From: Methylobacterium sp. WSM2598
GTDB lineage: Bacteria > Pseudomonadota > Alphaproteobacteria > Rhizobiales > Beijerinckiaceae
Assembly (NCBI RefSeq): GCF_000379105.1
Contig: NZ_KB900609.1
Location: 3,900,802-3,964,801, forward strand
DNA: 64,000 nt
Reading direction: 5' to 3'
Program-made: the position numbers and the translations under genes
Shown: positions 26,691-61,827 of the stretch, piece after piece
Layout: every line of letters begins with the position of its first letter
Position numbering within the stretch: position 1 is the first letter of the stretch
Notes under the pieces: model-generated
What the model saw: the letters and a program-made list of their open reading frames with translations, nothing else
Told to the model about the DNA's origin: nothing
Databases searched by the model: none

Positions 26691-27431
26691 GTGCTCTTGT
26701 CCCCCGATGCCCCGGCGGTCCCGGCGGCGACCGACAGCGTGCTCCTGCCCGAGCCGGTGCGCGACCATCTCGGTCACGCGCTGCGGGAGCTCTACGGGGC
26801 TCACCAGACGGCGGAGCTGTCGTCCTCGCTGCAGGCGCTTCTCGACCAACTCACCAAGGCGCTCGACGCGCAGTCCGACGCCGATCTGCGCGCCTTCCAT
26901 GCCGGCCTGATGAAGGCGCTGCCCTCGCTGCGCGCCTTCGCGATCAGCATGGCGGGGCGGACCGCCGAGGCCGACGACCTCGTGCAGGAGACCGTCCTGC
27001 GCGGCTGGCAGAACCGCGAGCGCTTCACGCCGGGCACCAACCTCGACGCGTGGCTGTTCACCATCATGCGCAACCACTTCTACTCGCTGCGGCGCAAGCG
27101 CTCGCGCGAGGTGGAGGACGACGAGGGACAGTACGCCGCGATGCTGGCGGTGGCGCCGCGCCAGGACCACGGGGTGAGCCTCGTGGAGGTGCAGGAGGCG
27201 CTGTCGCGGCTGCCGCCCGACATGCGCGAGACGCTGGTGCTGGTGGGCGTGCAGGAACTGACCTACGAGCAGGTCGCCGCCATGATGGGGGTCGCGGTCG
27301 GCACCATCAAGAGCCGCGTGAACCGCGCCCGGTCGCGGCTCGCCGCCCTGCTCGGCTATACGGGCCGGGAGTTGCAGGCGGACGCGATGATCCAATCCGC
27401 CATGACGAACCGGGGGATGCCGCGCGGCTGA
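26691..27431 (+). CDS. EcfG-like ECF sigma factor with NepR-like N-terminal segment
   Basis: 246 residues, longer than a normal EcfG (about 180). Residues about 68-246 are a full sigma factor: region 2 with ADDLVQETVLRGWQNRERF and TNLDAWLFTIMRNHFYS, and region 4 with LSRLPPDMRETLVLVGVQEL and EQVAAMMGVAVGTIKSRVNR. This is the EcfG (ECF15) type that controls the alphaproteobacterial general stress response. Residues about 23-60 (LGHALRELYG, then LQALLDQLTKAL) resemble the anti-sigma factor NepR (G-x-x-LRxLY...LLxxL pattern). If so, the protein carries its own inhibitor-like domain. GTG at 26691 follows GGAGG. No phyR or nepR lies nearby. Confidence 0.85.
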   Translation: MLLSPDAPAVPAATDSVLLPEPVRDHLGHALRELYGAHQTAELSSSLQALLDQLTKALDAQSDADLRAFHAGLMKALPSLRAFAISMAGRTAEADDLVQETVLRGWQNRERFTPGTNLDAWLFTIMRNHFYSLRRKRSREVEDDEGQYAAMLAVAPRQDHGVSLVEVQEALSRLPPDMRETLVLVGVQELTYEQVAAMMGVAVGTIKSRVNRARSRLAALLGYTGRELQADAMIQSAMTNRGMPRG

Positions 27432-27702
27432 GCGCGGCGCGCCCGGGACCCCGTCCTGATCGCGCTCGACCCCGTGGCCTGCCTCGTCTGCGCGCTGCCG
27501 CGCGCAGATCGGCGGACCCTGTCCCTTCATGAAGGGCGAGCGGACCGGTCTCGCTTTCGTGGCCGCGGGCGCACGCGCCGTCGCAAAACCCCTCGCGCGG
27601 CGCGCCTGGGCGCCGCTCCCGCAACGTTCCATGCCGGGCGAGCATGGCAGTCCCCCGCCAAGCTCGGTTGCGTTGTGCGGTGCAGCGTGGGACAAAACGA
27701 CG
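27432..27702. other. Intergenic region before sRNA copy A
   Basis: No credible gene is seen between the sigma factor stop and the sRNA. TTGCGT (27668-27673) and GACAAA (27691-27696) with 17-base spacing form a plausible promoter for the sRNA, giving a start near 27703. Confidence 0.5.
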
Positions 27703-27792
27703 TCGCCGCCGCGATGGCGTCGCGGCGGCGATTGCCCTCTTGGGGCGTTTCCTCCCTAGACTTCGGGCCGCTCGCGAGGGCGGCCTTTTTTT
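27703..27792 (+). ncRNA. mmgR: Small RNA resembling the mmgR/alpha-r8 (suhB) family, copy A
   Basis: A 90-nt region with three parts. Stem 1 is a perfect 12-bp hairpin (27703-27714 with 27720-27731, loop TGGCG). A short GCCC/GGGC hairpin follows, then unpaired GTTTCCTCCCTAGACTTC, then a terminator hairpin (GGCCGCT with GGCGGCC, 27766-27785) and seven T residues. A second copy at 61648-61737 keeps the loop, the TTTCCTCCC motif and the terminator while changing stem 1 with compensating bases. The unpaired CCTCCC could pair with Shine-Dalgarno sequences of target mRNAs. Family assignment is from memory of the motif (TTTCCTCCCT), not a covariance search. Confidence 0.72.
27766..27792 (+). terminator. 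Rho-independent terminator of sRNA copy A
   Basis: The 7-bp stem GGCCGCT/GGCGGCC with loop CGCGAG is followed by seven T residues. It ends the sRNA. Confidence 0.88.
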
Positions 27793-27894
27793 CTGCCTTG
27801 GGTCCGAGGGTCTTAGCCGGAGGCGTCGGCCCCCACAAGCACAATTGTGCGGCACGCTCCCGTTGGTGGCACTTTTGTGCTCAATCGGGCCCGG

Positions 27895-28767
27895 TCAGGC
27901 GGCCTTTCGGCCGGTTCGCGCCGGATCCGGCCCCGGCGCGACCGCCTCGGCCTCCTGATGAAGGGCCGCCGCGAGGAGGCGCGCGCGCTCCGCCCAGCGG
28001 TCCCGGTCGCGCCGCAGGGCCTTGACCTCGTCCCGGACCAGCGCGAGCGCGACGCGCAGGTCGTCGAGGTCGCCGCGCAGGGACGTGGTGCGGGCGCGCT
28101 CCTCGGCCAGGGCCTCGCGCAGGACGGCGAGGGCTCCCTCTGCCGCCGGCAGCTCCCCGACCGCCGGCCGGTCCCGGGCCTCCGGAAGCTGCCGCCCGGC
28201 ATCGGGCGCGGGCGCCGCGCCGGCGGGCGCGGCCCCGGCCGGCTGCAGGGCCGCGAGTTCCGCCCGCAGCCGGTCGGGATCGAAGGCGGGCGGGGGGCCG
28301 TCCGCCGCCGGGGCGCCGGGCAGCAGGCTCGGGGCGTCGGAGACGTCCTCCTCCTCCAGCACGAGGCCGTGCAGCATGGCGAGGACGGCATCGCCGTCGA
28401 GGCGCTCCGGATCGAACCCGCTCTCGGCCGCGATGCCGCTCCACAGCGACCGGCCGCGACCGGACTGGCCCACGAAGGCCATGGCCCAGTTGGCGAAGCC
28501 GCGCGCCTCCACCGGGCCGCATTGCAGGACCGTGACGTCGCTGTGGCGCAGGTCGCGCTGGATGCGCTCGAAGGTGGCCTCGACGCTCCTGCGGGGGCCC
28601 TCCAGCACCTGCGCGAAGGCGCCGGCGTTGAACATCAGCGCGCCCGTGACCCCGGCGGCCTCGTTGTTGCGGCGGGAGGCCGCCAGGATCTGCACGATGG
28701 CCGCCTCCGCCTCGTCGGGCTTCAGCAGGTTCCGGCTCGCGTAGACGAGGCGGTAGAGGTCTTGCAT
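27895..28767 (-). CDS. BLUF-domain blue-light photoreceptor protein
   Basis: 290 residues. The N-terminal BLUF domain (1-100) has every key flavin-pocket residue aligned with PixD: Tyr9 in LYRLVYAS, Asn35 in SRRNN, Gln53 in FAQVLEG, and Trp94 and Met96 in FANWAMAF. BLUF proteins bind FAD and switch a hydrogen-bond network on blue light. Residues about 120-205 are a Pro/Ala-rich linker and 205-275 a predicted coiled coil rich in Arg, Glu and Leu that could carry the signal to a partner. The gene follows a GGDEF-EAL gene by only 18 bases on the same strand, so that enzyme is the obvious output. Convergent with the sRNA. Confidence 0.93.
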   Translation of the reverse strand: MQDLYRLVYASRNLLKPDEAEAAIVQILAASRRNNEAAGVTGALMFNAGAFAQVLEGPRRSVEATFERIQRDLRHSDVTVLQCGPVEARGFANWAMAFVGQSGRGRSLWSGIAAESGFDPERLDGDAVLAMLHGLVLEEEDVSDAPSLLPGAPAADGPPPAFDPDRLRAELAALQPAGAAPAGAAPAPDAGRQLPEARDRPAVGELPAAEGALAVLREALAEERARTTSLRGDLDDLRVALALVRDEVKALRRDRDRWAERARLLAAALHQEAEAVAPGPDPARTGRKAA

Positions 28768-28785: not shown

Positions 28786-30495
28786 TCAGGAGCGGGCGAG
28801 CAGGGCCAGGAGGTCGTCGGCGGGGATCGGGCGGCTCACGAGGTAGCCCTGCACGTCGGTGCAGCCCTCCGCCCGGATGCGGCGCATCTGCTCGGGCGTC
28901 TCGACGCCCTCCGCCACGGTGGTCATGCCGAGGCTGCGCCCGAGCCCGGCGATCGCCCGGATGACCGCGTCGCCGTCGGGCTTCTGGGCCATGTCGCGGA
29001 CGAAGGAGCGGTCGATCTTGATCTTGTCGAACGGGAAGGCGCGCAGGTAGCTCAGCGAGGAGTAGCCGGTGCCGAAATCGTCCATCGAGACGCGCACGCC
29101 GAGGTCGCGCAGGCGGTGCAGGGTGCGCAGGGTCTGGGCGTCGTCCTGCAGGAGAAGCCCCTCGGTGATCTCGATCTCCAGGCGCGGGGCGGGCAGCCCC
29201 GAGCGCGCCAGGGCCGAGACCACGGTGTCGACGAGGCGGTCGCCCTTGAACTGCGCGGGCGAGACGTTGACCGCGACCGTGATCGGCCGGGGCCAGCGCA
29301 CGGCGTCGTGGCAGGCTTGGCGGATCACCCAGTCGCCGATCGGCACGATCAGGCCGATCTCCTCGGCCAGCGGGATGAACTCGGCGGGCGAGACCATGCC
29401 GCGGACGGGGTGGCGCCAGCGCAGCAGCGCCTCGCAGCCGGTGAGGCGCTCCTCCAGCAGGTTGAGCTGGGGCTGGTAGTGGATCTCGAATTCGCGCCGG
29501 GCGAGCGCTTGGCGCATGTCGAGCTCGAGCTGGCGGCGCGCCTGCATCTGCGCGTCCATGGTCGGCTCGAAGAACCGGAAGGTGGCGCGCCCGTCGCGCT
29601 TGGCGCGGTAGAGGGCGAGGTCGGCGCTCTTGAGGAGGCGGTCGGGATCGGTCCCGTCCTGCGGGGCGAGCGCGATGCCGAGGCTCGCCCCGATGCTGAC
29701 GAGGTGGCCCTCGATCATGTAGGCCCGGCCGATCAGGTCGACGAGGCGCTGGGCGAGCGCGGTGGTGTCGGCGGCGTCCCGCACGGCCGATTGCAGGACC
29801 ACGAACTCGTCCCCGCCGATGCGGGCCACCGTGTCCTCGGCCCGCACCGTCGCGCGCAGCCGGTCGGCGACCTTCTCGAGCAGCGCGTCGCCGACCGGGT
29901 GGCCGAGCGTGTCGTTGACCGGCTTGAAACGGTCGAGGTCGACGAGCAGGAGCGCGCAGCCCTCGCCGCGCCGCGCGAGCCGGTCGAGGGCCGCGCCGAG
30001 GCGCTCGCGCAGGAGCAGGCGGTTGGGGAGCCGGGTCAGGGGATCGAGCCGCGCCGTCTCGGCCGCGCTCGCCTCTGCGGCGCGCCGCGCGCTGATATCC
30101 TCCAGGGTGGCGACCATTCCGGTGCCGGGGACGCGGCTCAGGGAGACCTGCACGGTGCGGTCGCGGTGGCAGAGGTCGAGGGAGACGGCGCCCTCCTCGC
30201 GCAGGCGCCGCGCCGCCCGCAGGATGTCGGCCCTGGCGAGGGCGCCCGCCCCGCGCAGGGCCGCGATCAGGCGCCGCGGGGAGAGCGGCTCGGCGAGGTC
30301 CGGCGCGAGCGCGGCGAGCAGCGCCCGGGCCGGCTCGGTGCAGAGCGCGACGCGCCCCGCCTCGTCCAGGATCAGCAGCCCGTGGCGCAGGCCGTCGAGG
30401 CAGCGCAGGAGCAGCGCCCGCGGCAGCGGGGAAGCGGGCTCCGGATCGGTCGGGCCCCGGAGGGTGTTCTCGACGCGATGCGCACCCAACGCCAT
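28786..30495 (-). CDS. Soluble GGDEF-EAL cyclic-di-GMP protein (BLUF partner)
   Basis: 569 residues. A PAS-like N-terminal region (about 28-140, starting CLDGLRHGLLILDEAGRVAL) is followed by a GGDEF domain with intact signature (227-231 in RIGGDEF) and an EAL domain with CEALLRW (354-360), ITEGLLLQDD and the DDFGTGYSS loop, ending in an AEGVET helix. Both active-site signatures look intact; a soluble enzyme. It is the first gene of a two-gene unit with the BLUF protein, which points to blue-light control of cyclic-di-GMP turnover. The ATG at 30495 lies in a 475-base upstream region. Confidence 0.93.
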   Translation of the reverse strand: MALGAHRVENTLRGPTDPEPASPLPRALLLRCLDGLRHGLLILDEAGRVALCTEPARALLAALAPDLAEPLSPRRLIAALRGAGALARADILRAARRLREEGAVSLDLCHRDRTVQVSLSRVPGTGMVATLEDISARRAAEASAAETARLDPLTRLPNRLLLRERLGAALDRLARRGEGCALLLVDLDRFKPVNDTLGHPVGDALLEKVADRLRATVRAEDTVARIGGDEFVVLQSAVRDAADTTALAQRLVDLIGRAYMIEGHLVSIGASLGIALAPQDGTDPDRLLKSADLALYRAKRDGRATFRFFEPTMDAQMQARRQLELDMRQALARREFEIHYQPQLNLLEERLTGCEALLRWRHPVRGMVSPAEFIPLAEEIGLIVPIGDWVIRQACHDAVRWPRPITVAVNVSPAQFKGDRLVDTVVSALARSGLPAPRLEIEITEGLLLQDDAQTLRTLHRLRDLGVRVSMDDFGTGYSSLSYLRAFPFDKIKIDRSFVRDMAQKPDGDAVIRAIAGLGRSLGMTTVAEGVETPEQMRRIRAEGCTDVQGYLVSRPIPADDLLALLARS

Positions 30496-60701: not shown

Positions 60702-61571
60702 ATGATGAAGCCCATTCGCAAAGCAGTCCTGCCCGTCGCGGGTCTGGGCACCCGCTTCCTCCCGGCGACCAAGGCGGTACCCAAGGAGATGCTGACGGTC
60801 GTGGACCGGCCGGTGGTGCAGCACGTGGTCGACGAGGCGAGGGAGGCGGGGATCGAGCACTTCATCTTCGTGACCGGCCGCGGCAAGGGCGTGATCGAGG
60901 ACCATTTCGACATCGCCTTCGAGCTCGACCGCACCCTGCAGGAGCGCGGCAAGCAGGCAGCCTACGAGGAGTTGAAGCGCGACCTGCCGCAGGCCGGGCA
61001 GACCAGCTTCACCCGCCAGCAGGCGCCGCTCGGCCTCGGTCACGCGGTCTGGTGCGCCCGCGAGATCGTCGGCGACGAGCCCTTCGCGGTGATCCTGCCC
61101 GACATGCTGAGCCGCGACTCGATGCGGCAGATGCTCGCCGCCTACGAGCGCCACGGCGGCAACGTCATCGCGGTCGAGGAGGTGCCCCACGACCAGACCC
61201 ACCAGTACGGCATCGTCAGCGTGGGCGAGGATTTCGGCGACACGTTCGAGATCACCGGCATGGTGGAGAAGCCGCCGAGGGGCACCGCGCCCTCCAACCT
61301 CATCATCTCGGGCCGCTACATCCTGCAGCCGGAGATCTTCGACATCCTCGGCCGGGGCGAGAAGGGCGCGGGCGGCGAGATCCAGCTCACCGACGGCATG
61401 AAGCGGCTGGCCGAGACCCAGGCCTTCTACGGGATGCGCTACCGCGGCAAGACCTACGACACCGGCTCGAAGCTCGGCTTCCTGGTCGCCAACCTCGCCT
61501 ACGCCCTCGCGCGCGACGACCTGCGCGACGACCTCAAGCGCGAAATAGCCGAGCTGCTGCGCACAGCGTGA
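60702..61571 (+). CDS. galU: UTP-glucose-1-phosphate uridylyltransferase
   Basis: 289 residues, normal length. The nucleotide-binding signature AGLGTRFLPATKAVPKEML is near the N-terminus (about 11-29), with QAPLGLGHAVWCAREIVGDE, AVILPDML (metal Asp), EVPHDQTHQYGIVSVGE, and EKPPRGTAPSNLIISGRYIL. It makes UDP-glucose from glucose-1-phosphate and UTP, which feeds galE directly. The ATG at 60702 follows a short leader; a second ATG-like codon ATGATG at 60702 is read as M-M. The sRNA copy B begins about 75 bases after its stop. Confidence 0.97.
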   Translation: MMKPIRKAVLPVAGLGTRFLPATKAVPKEMLTVVDRPVVQHVVDEAREAGIEHFIFVTGRGKGVIEDHFDIAFELDRTLQERGKQAAYEELKRDLPQAGQTSFTRQQAPLGLGHAVWCAREIVGDEPFAVILPDMLSRDSMRQMLAAYERHGGNVIAVEEVPHDQTHQYGIVSVGEDFGDTFEITGMVEKPPRGTAPSNLIISGRYILQPEIFDILGRGEKGAGGEIQLTDGMKRLAETQAFYGMRYRGKTYDTGSKLGFLVANLAYALARDDLRDDLKREIAELLRTA

Positions 61572-61613: not shown

Positions 61614-61640
61614 TTGCGGTTTTTGCAGCGCGCCTTAAAT
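61614..61640 (+). promoter_or_regulatory. Probable promoter of sRNA copy B
   Basis: TTGCGG (61614-61619) and TTAAAT (61635-61640), 15 to 16 bases apart, lie just ahead of the sRNA. The TTGCG element and a TGCAGCG stretch are shared with the region upstream of copy A. Confidence 0.5.
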
Positions 61641-61647
61641 GTTGCAT

Positions 61648-61737
61648 TGCGAGATCGCGATGGCGTCGCGGTCTCGCAGCCCTCCTTGGGCGTTTCCTCC
61701 CTAGACTTCGGGCCGTTCGCGAGAGCGGCCTTTTTTT
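61648..61737 (+). ncRNA. mmgR: Small RNA resembling the mmgR/alpha-r8 (suhB) family, copy B
   Basis: About 90 nt. Stem 1 is GCGAGATCGCGA (61649-61660) with TCGCGGTCTCGC (61666-61677), one wobble pair, loop TGGCG as in copy A. Then come a GCCC/GGGC hairpin, the unpaired GTTTCCTCCCTAGACTTC identical to copy A, and a terminator hairpin GGCCGTT/AGCGGCC with seven T residues. A promoter (TTGCGG at 61614, TTAAAT at 61635) predicts a start near 61647, at the base of stem 1. Stem 1 differs from copy A at several paired positions, always keeping pairing, which is strong evidence for a structured RNA. Intergenic between galU and the cupin gene. Confidence 0.75.
61711..61737 (+). terminator. Rho-independent terminator of sRNA copy B
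   Basis: The 7-bp stem GGCCGTT/AGCGGCC with one wobble and loop CGCGAG is followed by seven T residues. It is the same design as copy A. Confidence 0.88.
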
Positions 61738-61827
61738 GGCCCGCTCCACAACCCGGTCCGCCGGGCATCGGCGCGCCCCGGTTGTGCGCGGGCGGCCGAG
61801 CGTCCACTCTGGCCGCGGGAGGAGACG

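Follow-up and report, generated by a model that had tools for sequence, protein, structure and literature searches.

Predicted MmgR/alphaR8-type small RNA genes in Methylobacterium sp. WSM2598 form a multicopy family with PhaR-type boxes in most promoters

Two 90-nt regions within a 64-kb stretch of the Methylobacterium sp. WSM2598 genome (the window), copy 1 in region 27703-27792 and copy 2 in region 61648-61737, are best explained as predicted genes for trans-acting small RNAs (sRNAs) of the MmgR/alphaR8 type. We propose, with a probability of about 75%, that they belong to a family of Hfq-type antisense sRNAs that would block ribosome-binding sites (RBSs) through the 10-mer UUUCCUCCCU, would be repressed by PhaR and would be released as PHB granules titrate PhaR.

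A search using Infernal with the Rfam model RF00519 (suhB/mmgR/alphaR8; gathering cut-off, 41 bits) matched copy 1 at 68.3 bits (27727..27801) and copy 2 at 67.7 bits (61672..61745), confirming the membership suggested in the first-pass annotation of this DNA. The regions were also as that annotation had described them, with GTTTCCTCCCTAGACTTC and the apex GCGATGGCGTCGC identical in both and a GC-rich terminator stem followed by seven T residues, save for a small correction of the stem coordinates, given that the hairpin finder places the arm starts at 27702 and 61647. The predicted folds contain three hairpins per RNA, with energies of -52.8 kcal/mol for copy 1 (z, -4.15) and -48.7 kcal/mol for copy 2 (z, -4.48), and none of 200 shuffles was as low in either case. 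All features of the two RNAs lie on the forward strand. Copy 1 begins with a 14-bp 5' hairpin with a GGC loop (27702..27732; fold, hairpin finder and covariation), followed by a short GCCC/GGGC hairpin (27734..27746; Rfam match and fold), the unpaired 10-mer TTTCCTCCCT (27748..27757; sequence, Rfam match and fold), which is the putative target-binding core by the role described in PMC12559287, and an intrinsic terminator made of a stem and seven T residues (27765..27792; sequence, Rfam match and fold). The same order is found in copy 2, with a 15-bp 5' hairpin with a GGC loop (61647..61679; fold, hairpin finder and covariation), a short GCCC/GGGC hairpin (61679..61691; Rfam match, fold and hairpin finder) whose first G could pair as the closing base of the 5' hairpin instead, the unpaired 10-mer TTTCCTCCCT (61693..61702; sequence, Rfam match and fold) and a terminator stem with seven T residues (61710..61737; sequence, Rfam match and fold). 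The anti-Shine-Dalgarno (anti-SD)-like core noted previously is thus present, with UUUCCUCCCU exact in both copies and unpaired in the predicted folds. A single-stranded 10-mer downstream of a weak hairpin is given as a mark of alphaR8 RNAs (PMC12559287), and both copies combine it with the covariance-model score and a Rho-independent terminator.

The genes neighboring the window copies encode an ECF sigma factor, a BLUF protein, GalU, a cupin and an SDR protein. The gene upstream of copy 1 (26691..27431, forward strand; the longest frame, whose true start may be internal) had been called EcfG-like; its product is an ECF sigma factor by Pfam Sigma70_r2 and r4_2, a PhyR_sigma2 match and NCBIfam sigma70-ECF over its cut-off, and EcfG is kept as a candidate label. 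The BLUF blue-light sensor gene adjoins copy 1 at 27895-28767 on the reverse strand, and a GGDEF/EAL-type frame, judged by eye, lies upstream of it on the same strand (28786-30495). Upstream of copy 2 is galU (60702..61571, forward strand; TIGR01099 just over the cut-off). Some alphaR8 copies are linked to an N-formylglutamate amidohydrolase (FGase) gene (PMC12559287), and no such gene adjoins either of the two window copies, which were the two checked.

Covariation of stem 1 between the two copies had been claimed in the first-pass annotation and was borne out: in the 13-bp stems centered on the apex, four pairs differ on both sides (T-A/G-C, C-G/A-T, C-G/G-C and G-C/A-T), one changes on one side only (C-G/T-G) and none breaks, as read by eye. 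Among 15 of the 19 copies of this genome (the finder detected no such hairpin in L016, L028 and L029, and MAFFT misaligned L026), 8 of 13 pairs have a two-sided change in at least one copy, which is stronger evidence than the 95.4% of stem cells that are paired, a percentage biased upward because the hairpins were found by their pairing. The covariation score of these 15 copies was 0.489 versus 0.237 in shuffles, with none of 500 reaching it, and slid-stem controls were all far lower. A hairpin score of at least 24 was obtained for 13/19 copies of this genome versus 5/95 control windows, for 40/56 copies in six other genomes of the genus versus 10/280 and for 8/27 copies of other genera versus 1/135; at a score of at least 20, the last comparison became 16/27 versus 7/135. 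The genus set for this hairpin comprised 55 of 75 copies (48 of them distinct), the other 20 being dropped. Of six genomic occurrences of the apex GCGATGGCGTCGC, five belong to these 5' hairpins. Since the RF00519 match starts close to the 3' arm of stem 1, the Rfam model covers almost none of the long 5' hairpin (in copy 1, its last bases alone), suggesting that the model omits a conserved 5' hairpin.

The upstream regions of the copies carry a palindrome that fits the PhaR-box consensus at a near-fixed place relative to the RF00519 start: between -45 and -51, at -29, or at both. The PhaR box of Bradyrhizobium diazoefficiens, TGCRNYGCASMA, was built on footprints (PMC6201568), and the consensus in Sinorhizobium meliloti is WNWD2NYGCRNYGCRNH2WNW (PMC12542648). 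Gel shifts in S. meliloti show PhaR bound to the mmgR promoter, and they disappear once the palindromes are removed or mutated (PMC12542648); a conserved dyad in that promoter was already in print (PMC8401924). The promoter features of both window copies lie on the forward strand. For copy 1, a -35-like TTGCGT (27668..27673) and a weak -10-like GACAAA (27691..27696), both picked by eye, are spaced by 17 nt, and the PhaR-type box TGCGGTGCA (27676..27684) stands within this spacer, a strict match located at -51 relative to the RF00519 start; its reverse strand also reads as the full TGCACCGCACAA. For copy 2, a -35-like TTGCGG (61614..61619), the place of which matches that of TTGCGT or similar hexamers in galU-linked copies, and a -10-like TAAATG (61636..61641) were also assigned by eye. 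Its two boxes are relaxed matches only: TGCAGCGCG (61624..61632) fits YGCRNYGCR with one mismatch to TGCRNYGCA, and TGCATTGCG (61643..61651) overlaps the start of the 5' hairpin. Among the 12 galU-linked copies that a stricter script caught in other Methylobacterium/Methylorubrum genomes, 11 have a strict first box at the same place. It had been suggested that the two copies might be differently triggered; given that both promoters carry PhaR-type boxes, one strict in copy 1 and two relaxed in copy 2, this pair is more likely to have one trigger in common, and both window copies probably answer to PhaR.

For the family as a whole, we searched positions -80 to -15 for a strict core (TGCRNYGCA) and a relaxed core (YGCRNYGCR), with four control windows per locus. 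The strict box was found in 10/19 copies of this genome versus 1/76 control windows (shuffle mean, 0.48; maximum, 3 in 200), in 24/56 copies of the six other genus genomes versus 3/224 and in 19/27 copies of other genera versus 4/108. The corresponding counts for the relaxed box, the consensus of which has a density of about 1.2 per kb in the flanks, were 13/19 versus 4/76, 37/56 versus 15/224 and 26/27 versus 11/108. The 56 copies are all those listed over the cut-off for those six genomes; the counts exclude three copies from the same species (G036) and, of the 30 loci taken from the order survey, three from Methylobacterium. At 40 further loci of other genera, one per genome and searched from -80 to -10, the relaxed box was present in 34/40 versus 15/160 and the strict box in 19/40 versus 6/160, which brings the relaxed box in the pooled other genera to 60/67 copies versus 26/268 controls, a figure in which weak family members are under-represented because these 67 loci come from the best 150 matches listed. 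At least two relaxed boxes precede 3/19 copies of this genome, 10/56 of the genus and 17/27 of other genera. Six of the 19 copies (L011, L014, L016, L018, L026 and L028) have no box by either consensus within -80 to -15; L014 has a strict one at -86, outside the searched window, and the single box of L029 is CGCAACGCG.

The genome has one phaR gene and one hfq gene. As a positive control for PhaR-type boxes, 5/10 of its phasin-domain genes (L110 and L112 to L115) have a strict box no more than 250 nt upstream of a possible ATG, within 80 nt in four of the five; the phaR locus (L120) has no strict box. The narrow 16-mer TTGYTGCRNYGCARCA gave seven rows in this genome (six places, one on both strands) versus one for the reversed pattern, and these places include two alphaR8 promoters and one phasin promoter. 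The alphaR8 copy L027 neighbors a phasin gene equipped with a box of its own (L114; G000:C1:4588257-4588932), the sRNA gene being 253 nt upstream; the downstream flank of L027 is common to L144 and L148 of a relative genome (G062), so that the neighborhood with phasin may recur, and L148, on a 458-kb contig of that genome, has the other promoter class described below.

The view that the window holds two copies stood insofar as they are paralogues within one genome, and we rejected the reading of them as a pair, given that the genome (7.67 Mb in 5 contigs) contains 19 RF00519 matches, 18 of them over the cut-off and one on a 56-kb contig. Only two of 14 control genomes had a match (Caulobacter and Thermus), one of them over the cut-off. 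Within the genus, all 99 genomes searched have copies, from 2 to 30 each with a median of 7 and at least 10 in 26/99, and laxer filters raised the largest set to 32, in G062. Across the order, 222 of 247 sampled genomes have a match, and the 241 outside the genus hold 0 to 7, as counted with stricter filters that lose weak matches and with 18 candidates scored per genome. Genomes of 7 to 9 Mb outside the genus hold 1 to 5 copies, and thus genome size alone does not explain the numbers. In print, most species carry one copy (PMC12559287), with five in Bradyrhizobium japonicum and four in Caulobacter (PMC1273637).

A comparison with the loci fetched from other species found a positional relative for 9/19 copies of this genome (L011, L013, L015, L017, L018, L024 and L026 to L028), and for the other 10/19 there was none or a short match alone; the family thus comprises both long-fixed copies and some that could be more recent. 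The location next to galU is a long-standing one. An RF00519 match lies just downstream of galU in 13/20 galU loci searched, namely in 13/16 named Methylobacterium/Methylorubrum loci (the misses being L030, L055 and L076), in 0/3 Enterovirga loci and in 0/1 further Methylobacteriaceae locus. None of ten named Microvirga loci has a galU-linked match, and the sole match in the locus search that contained them was a Beijerinckiaceae locus (L059), at a greater distance.

A different promoter class does occur among copies of relatives, and the suggestion of different triggers keeps this much. In ten copies of G062 and G065, the palindrome GTGCG-N4-CGCAC lies at -41/-42 from the RF00519 start, against a background of 1 in 179 kb of flank; it also occurs at -72/-73 in L018 of this genome and in L151 of G062, and L016 of this genome has an imperfect version only. 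No strict PhaR box precedes any of the ten copies (a relaxed one is present in L146 and L152), and none of the ten is in the 5'-hairpin set, the palindrome standing instead of the hairpin. The palindrome could act as an operator in the DNA or as a stem in the RNA; the invariance of its half-sites does not discriminate between the two because the copies were picked by that very feature. The sequence GTGCGYNNRCGCACRTC, tried in G062 as a marker of the regulon and dropped, occurs at three places, two of which are alphaR8 copies and the third of which is upstream of a protein gene. Separately, a protein gene at locus L268 (G062:C7, about 3311490) is preceded by a GTGCGCAAGCGCAC palindrome adjoining CTTGATATCAAG repeats, which may be a further site of the second-class regulator.

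We considered that each alphaR8 paralogue could have its own regulator, as SisA-D do in Caulobacter, with the PhaR-type boxes being non-decisive remnants of duplication. The second promoter class, in the ten copies of G062 and G065 and in L018 and L151, would fit such a reading, as would the copies of this genome without a recognizable operator and the four Caulobacter promoters, which have no motif in common (PMC12559287). We think it unlikely, given that the boxes keep their place and palindrome while the surrounding promoters diverge between paralogues and between genera, and that the relaxed box is kept in 60 of the 67 sampled copies outside the genus.

Much less probable, in our view, is that the loci are mere terminators or 3' ends of upstream genes rather than independent sRNA genes. 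In its favor, galU ends about 75 nt before the start of copy 2, whose own end is a good terminator, and the galU linkage is conserved; however, a terminator needs neither the conserved unpaired 10-mer, the second hairpin, the covarying 5' hairpin nor the promoter boxes, the copies of this genome adjoin unrelated genes in both orientations, and relatives are transcripts in S. meliloti (PMC7143759) and Caulobacter (PMC12559287). It is equally hard to credit that the copies are a mobile or REP-like repeat element that spreads for its own sake, such that their number would reflect transposition and not regulation. Copy number does rise with genome size in the genus (Spearman 0.88, n=99), the closest pair, L021 on the 56-kb contig and L022 on the chromosome, is 86% identical over promoter and RNA, and L022 and L025 are each followed by frames that look transposase-like by eye, but the nine copies with positional relatives in other species among the fetched loci, and the retention of core, pairing and mostly operator under divergence, speak against such an element. 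PhaR-controlled antisense sRNAs remain the preferred reading.

In terms of candidate targets, a pattern of strong RBS complementarity to the core occurred at 15 places in the genome versus 0 for the reversed pattern. Five of these are on the antisense strands of alphaR8 copies, one is before a 16-residue frame and nine are before longer frames, including an Abhydrolase_10 gene, an asparaginase, a periplasmic binding protein, an MFS gene present twice and, as judged by eye, a CBS-domain protein and others. These genes are leads. The two MFS genes (L188 and L194; G000:C1:3767882 and 7337911) are equal in length, identical over their first 90 residues and have a common RBS, AGGGAGGAACATATG, and are probably a recent duplication. 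The Abhydrolase_10 RBS (L180 and L182; G000:C1:848050-848069, reverse strand), about 4.2 kb from alphaR8 copy L022, forms the best predicted duplex with the core, at -29.2 kcal/mol, compared to -26.0 kcal/mol for the best of 413 start sites in the window. An apparent extra copy at C1:848061 was discarded as an sRNA, as it has no RF00519 match and is this same RBS. Phasins were likewise dropped as direct targets, since the predicted duplexes of their leaders at the likeliest ATG (L112, -18.5; L115, -18.3; L113, -17.6; L114, -15.0; L110, -5.9 kcal/mol) are ordinary against a background 5% point of -20.9 kcal/mol.

Outside the antisense strands of the copies, the exact 11-nt anti-core CTAGGGAGGAA occurs at just two places, the Abhydrolase_10 leader and upstream of L018, and no other RNA with it was found in this exact search, in which weaker sponges would be missed. 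At L018 (G000:C1:6723900-6729400), CTAGGGAGGAA lies 27 to 37 nt upstream of the RF00519 start on the same strand and is complementary to the copy's own core. A same-species genome has it as well (L177). We dropped the idea of a self-sponge, given that CTAGGGAGGAA is absent from the positional relative L151 in G062 and is located at the presumed promoter or the extreme 5' end.

RNAs with the anti-SD motif CCUCCUCCC go by the name "cuckoo." SmelA075/SmelA099 and RS0680a (CCUCCUCCC) resemble the present family as multicopy alphaproteobacterial RNAs with an anti-SD motif, but the motif of SmelA075/SmelA099 lies in the loop of each repeated hairpin (PMC3927594), whereas here it occurs once, unpaired between hairpins; in the window copies, CCUCCUCCC in each loop was not found, the core being UUUCCUCCCU. 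The suhB motif of Corbino et al. (2005) is the founding element of RF00519, with multiple copies noted and a conserved structure made of a short 5'-end helix and a terminator (PMC1273637), to which the RNAs described here add a further covarying 5' hairpin. MmgR of S. meliloti shares RF00519, the 10-mer UUUCCUCCCU, the terminator and a PhaR (AniA) palindrome in the promoter (PMC12542648). At 77 nt, it is termed the sole alphaR8 sRNA of S. meliloti (PMC12559287), although a review table lists 3 genome copies (PMC7143759), compared to 19 copies here, where there are also the long covarying 5' hairpin outside the Rfam model and two boxes in the galU-linked copy. MmgR keeps PHB and phasin levels in check (PMC8401924, PMC7143759), and NtrC also acts on mmgR (PMC8401924). 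In the literature examined, PhaR binding among alphaR8 genes is in print for S. meliloti mmgR only (PMC12542648, PMC8401924); another paper names mmgR as an S. meliloti example and does not study sRNAs (PMC6520949). SisA-D of Caulobacter crescentus are paralogous alphaR8 RNAs with a common 10-mer, through which SisA pairs with a 5'UTR and represses its target, and they are countered by the sponge CrfA (PMC12559287). They differ in that there are four copies without a common promoter motif, whereas a PhaR-type operator is common to most copies here, and thus PhaR control is not universal in the alphaR8 family.

We infer transcription, PhaR binding, Hfq use, targets and a dosage effect, which could act together as follows. 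Each alphaR8 RNA would be made from its own promoter. PhaR, a PHB-binding repressor, would most likely sit on the box between -35 and -10 of copy 1 and on the two boxes that flank the -10 of copy 2, keeping both off. As PHB accumulates, granules would titrate PhaR away and many siblings would be switched on together; the RNAs, probably with Hfq, would then pair via the 10-mer with G/A-rich RBSs and lower translation of a common mRNA set. Such RBS blocking fits the action of SisA in Caulobacter. More tentatively, the genus could have expanded a single PHB-sensing sRNA into an array of dispersed siblings with one anti-SD core, 19 here and up to 32 in a relative, which would be a dosage amplifier under a common PhaR operator that reduces translation across a wide range of mRNAs at high PHB, with a subclass rewired to another palindrome-binding regulator to take in a second signal and the covarying hairpin serving as a sibling-specific element of stability or identity.

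The family, its 10-mer core and PhaR control are known in kind from S. meliloti mmgR. We found no report of these copies or boxes in Methylobacterium in the titles and abstract openings surveyed, and what appears to be new, in each case from sequence evidence, is the size of the family in the genus, the operator common to siblings, the reach of that operator across the order, the second promoter class and the covarying 5' hairpin. The boxes suggest that the PhaR-mmgR link known from one species may hold across the order. The Caulobacter study asks why a cell should maintain numerous near-identical sRNAs and, for alphaR8, whether the siblings are redundant (PMC12559287). With operators that can be read and copy numbers from 2 to 32, the genus forms a natural series in which experiments could tell redundancy, dosage and differing inputs apart.
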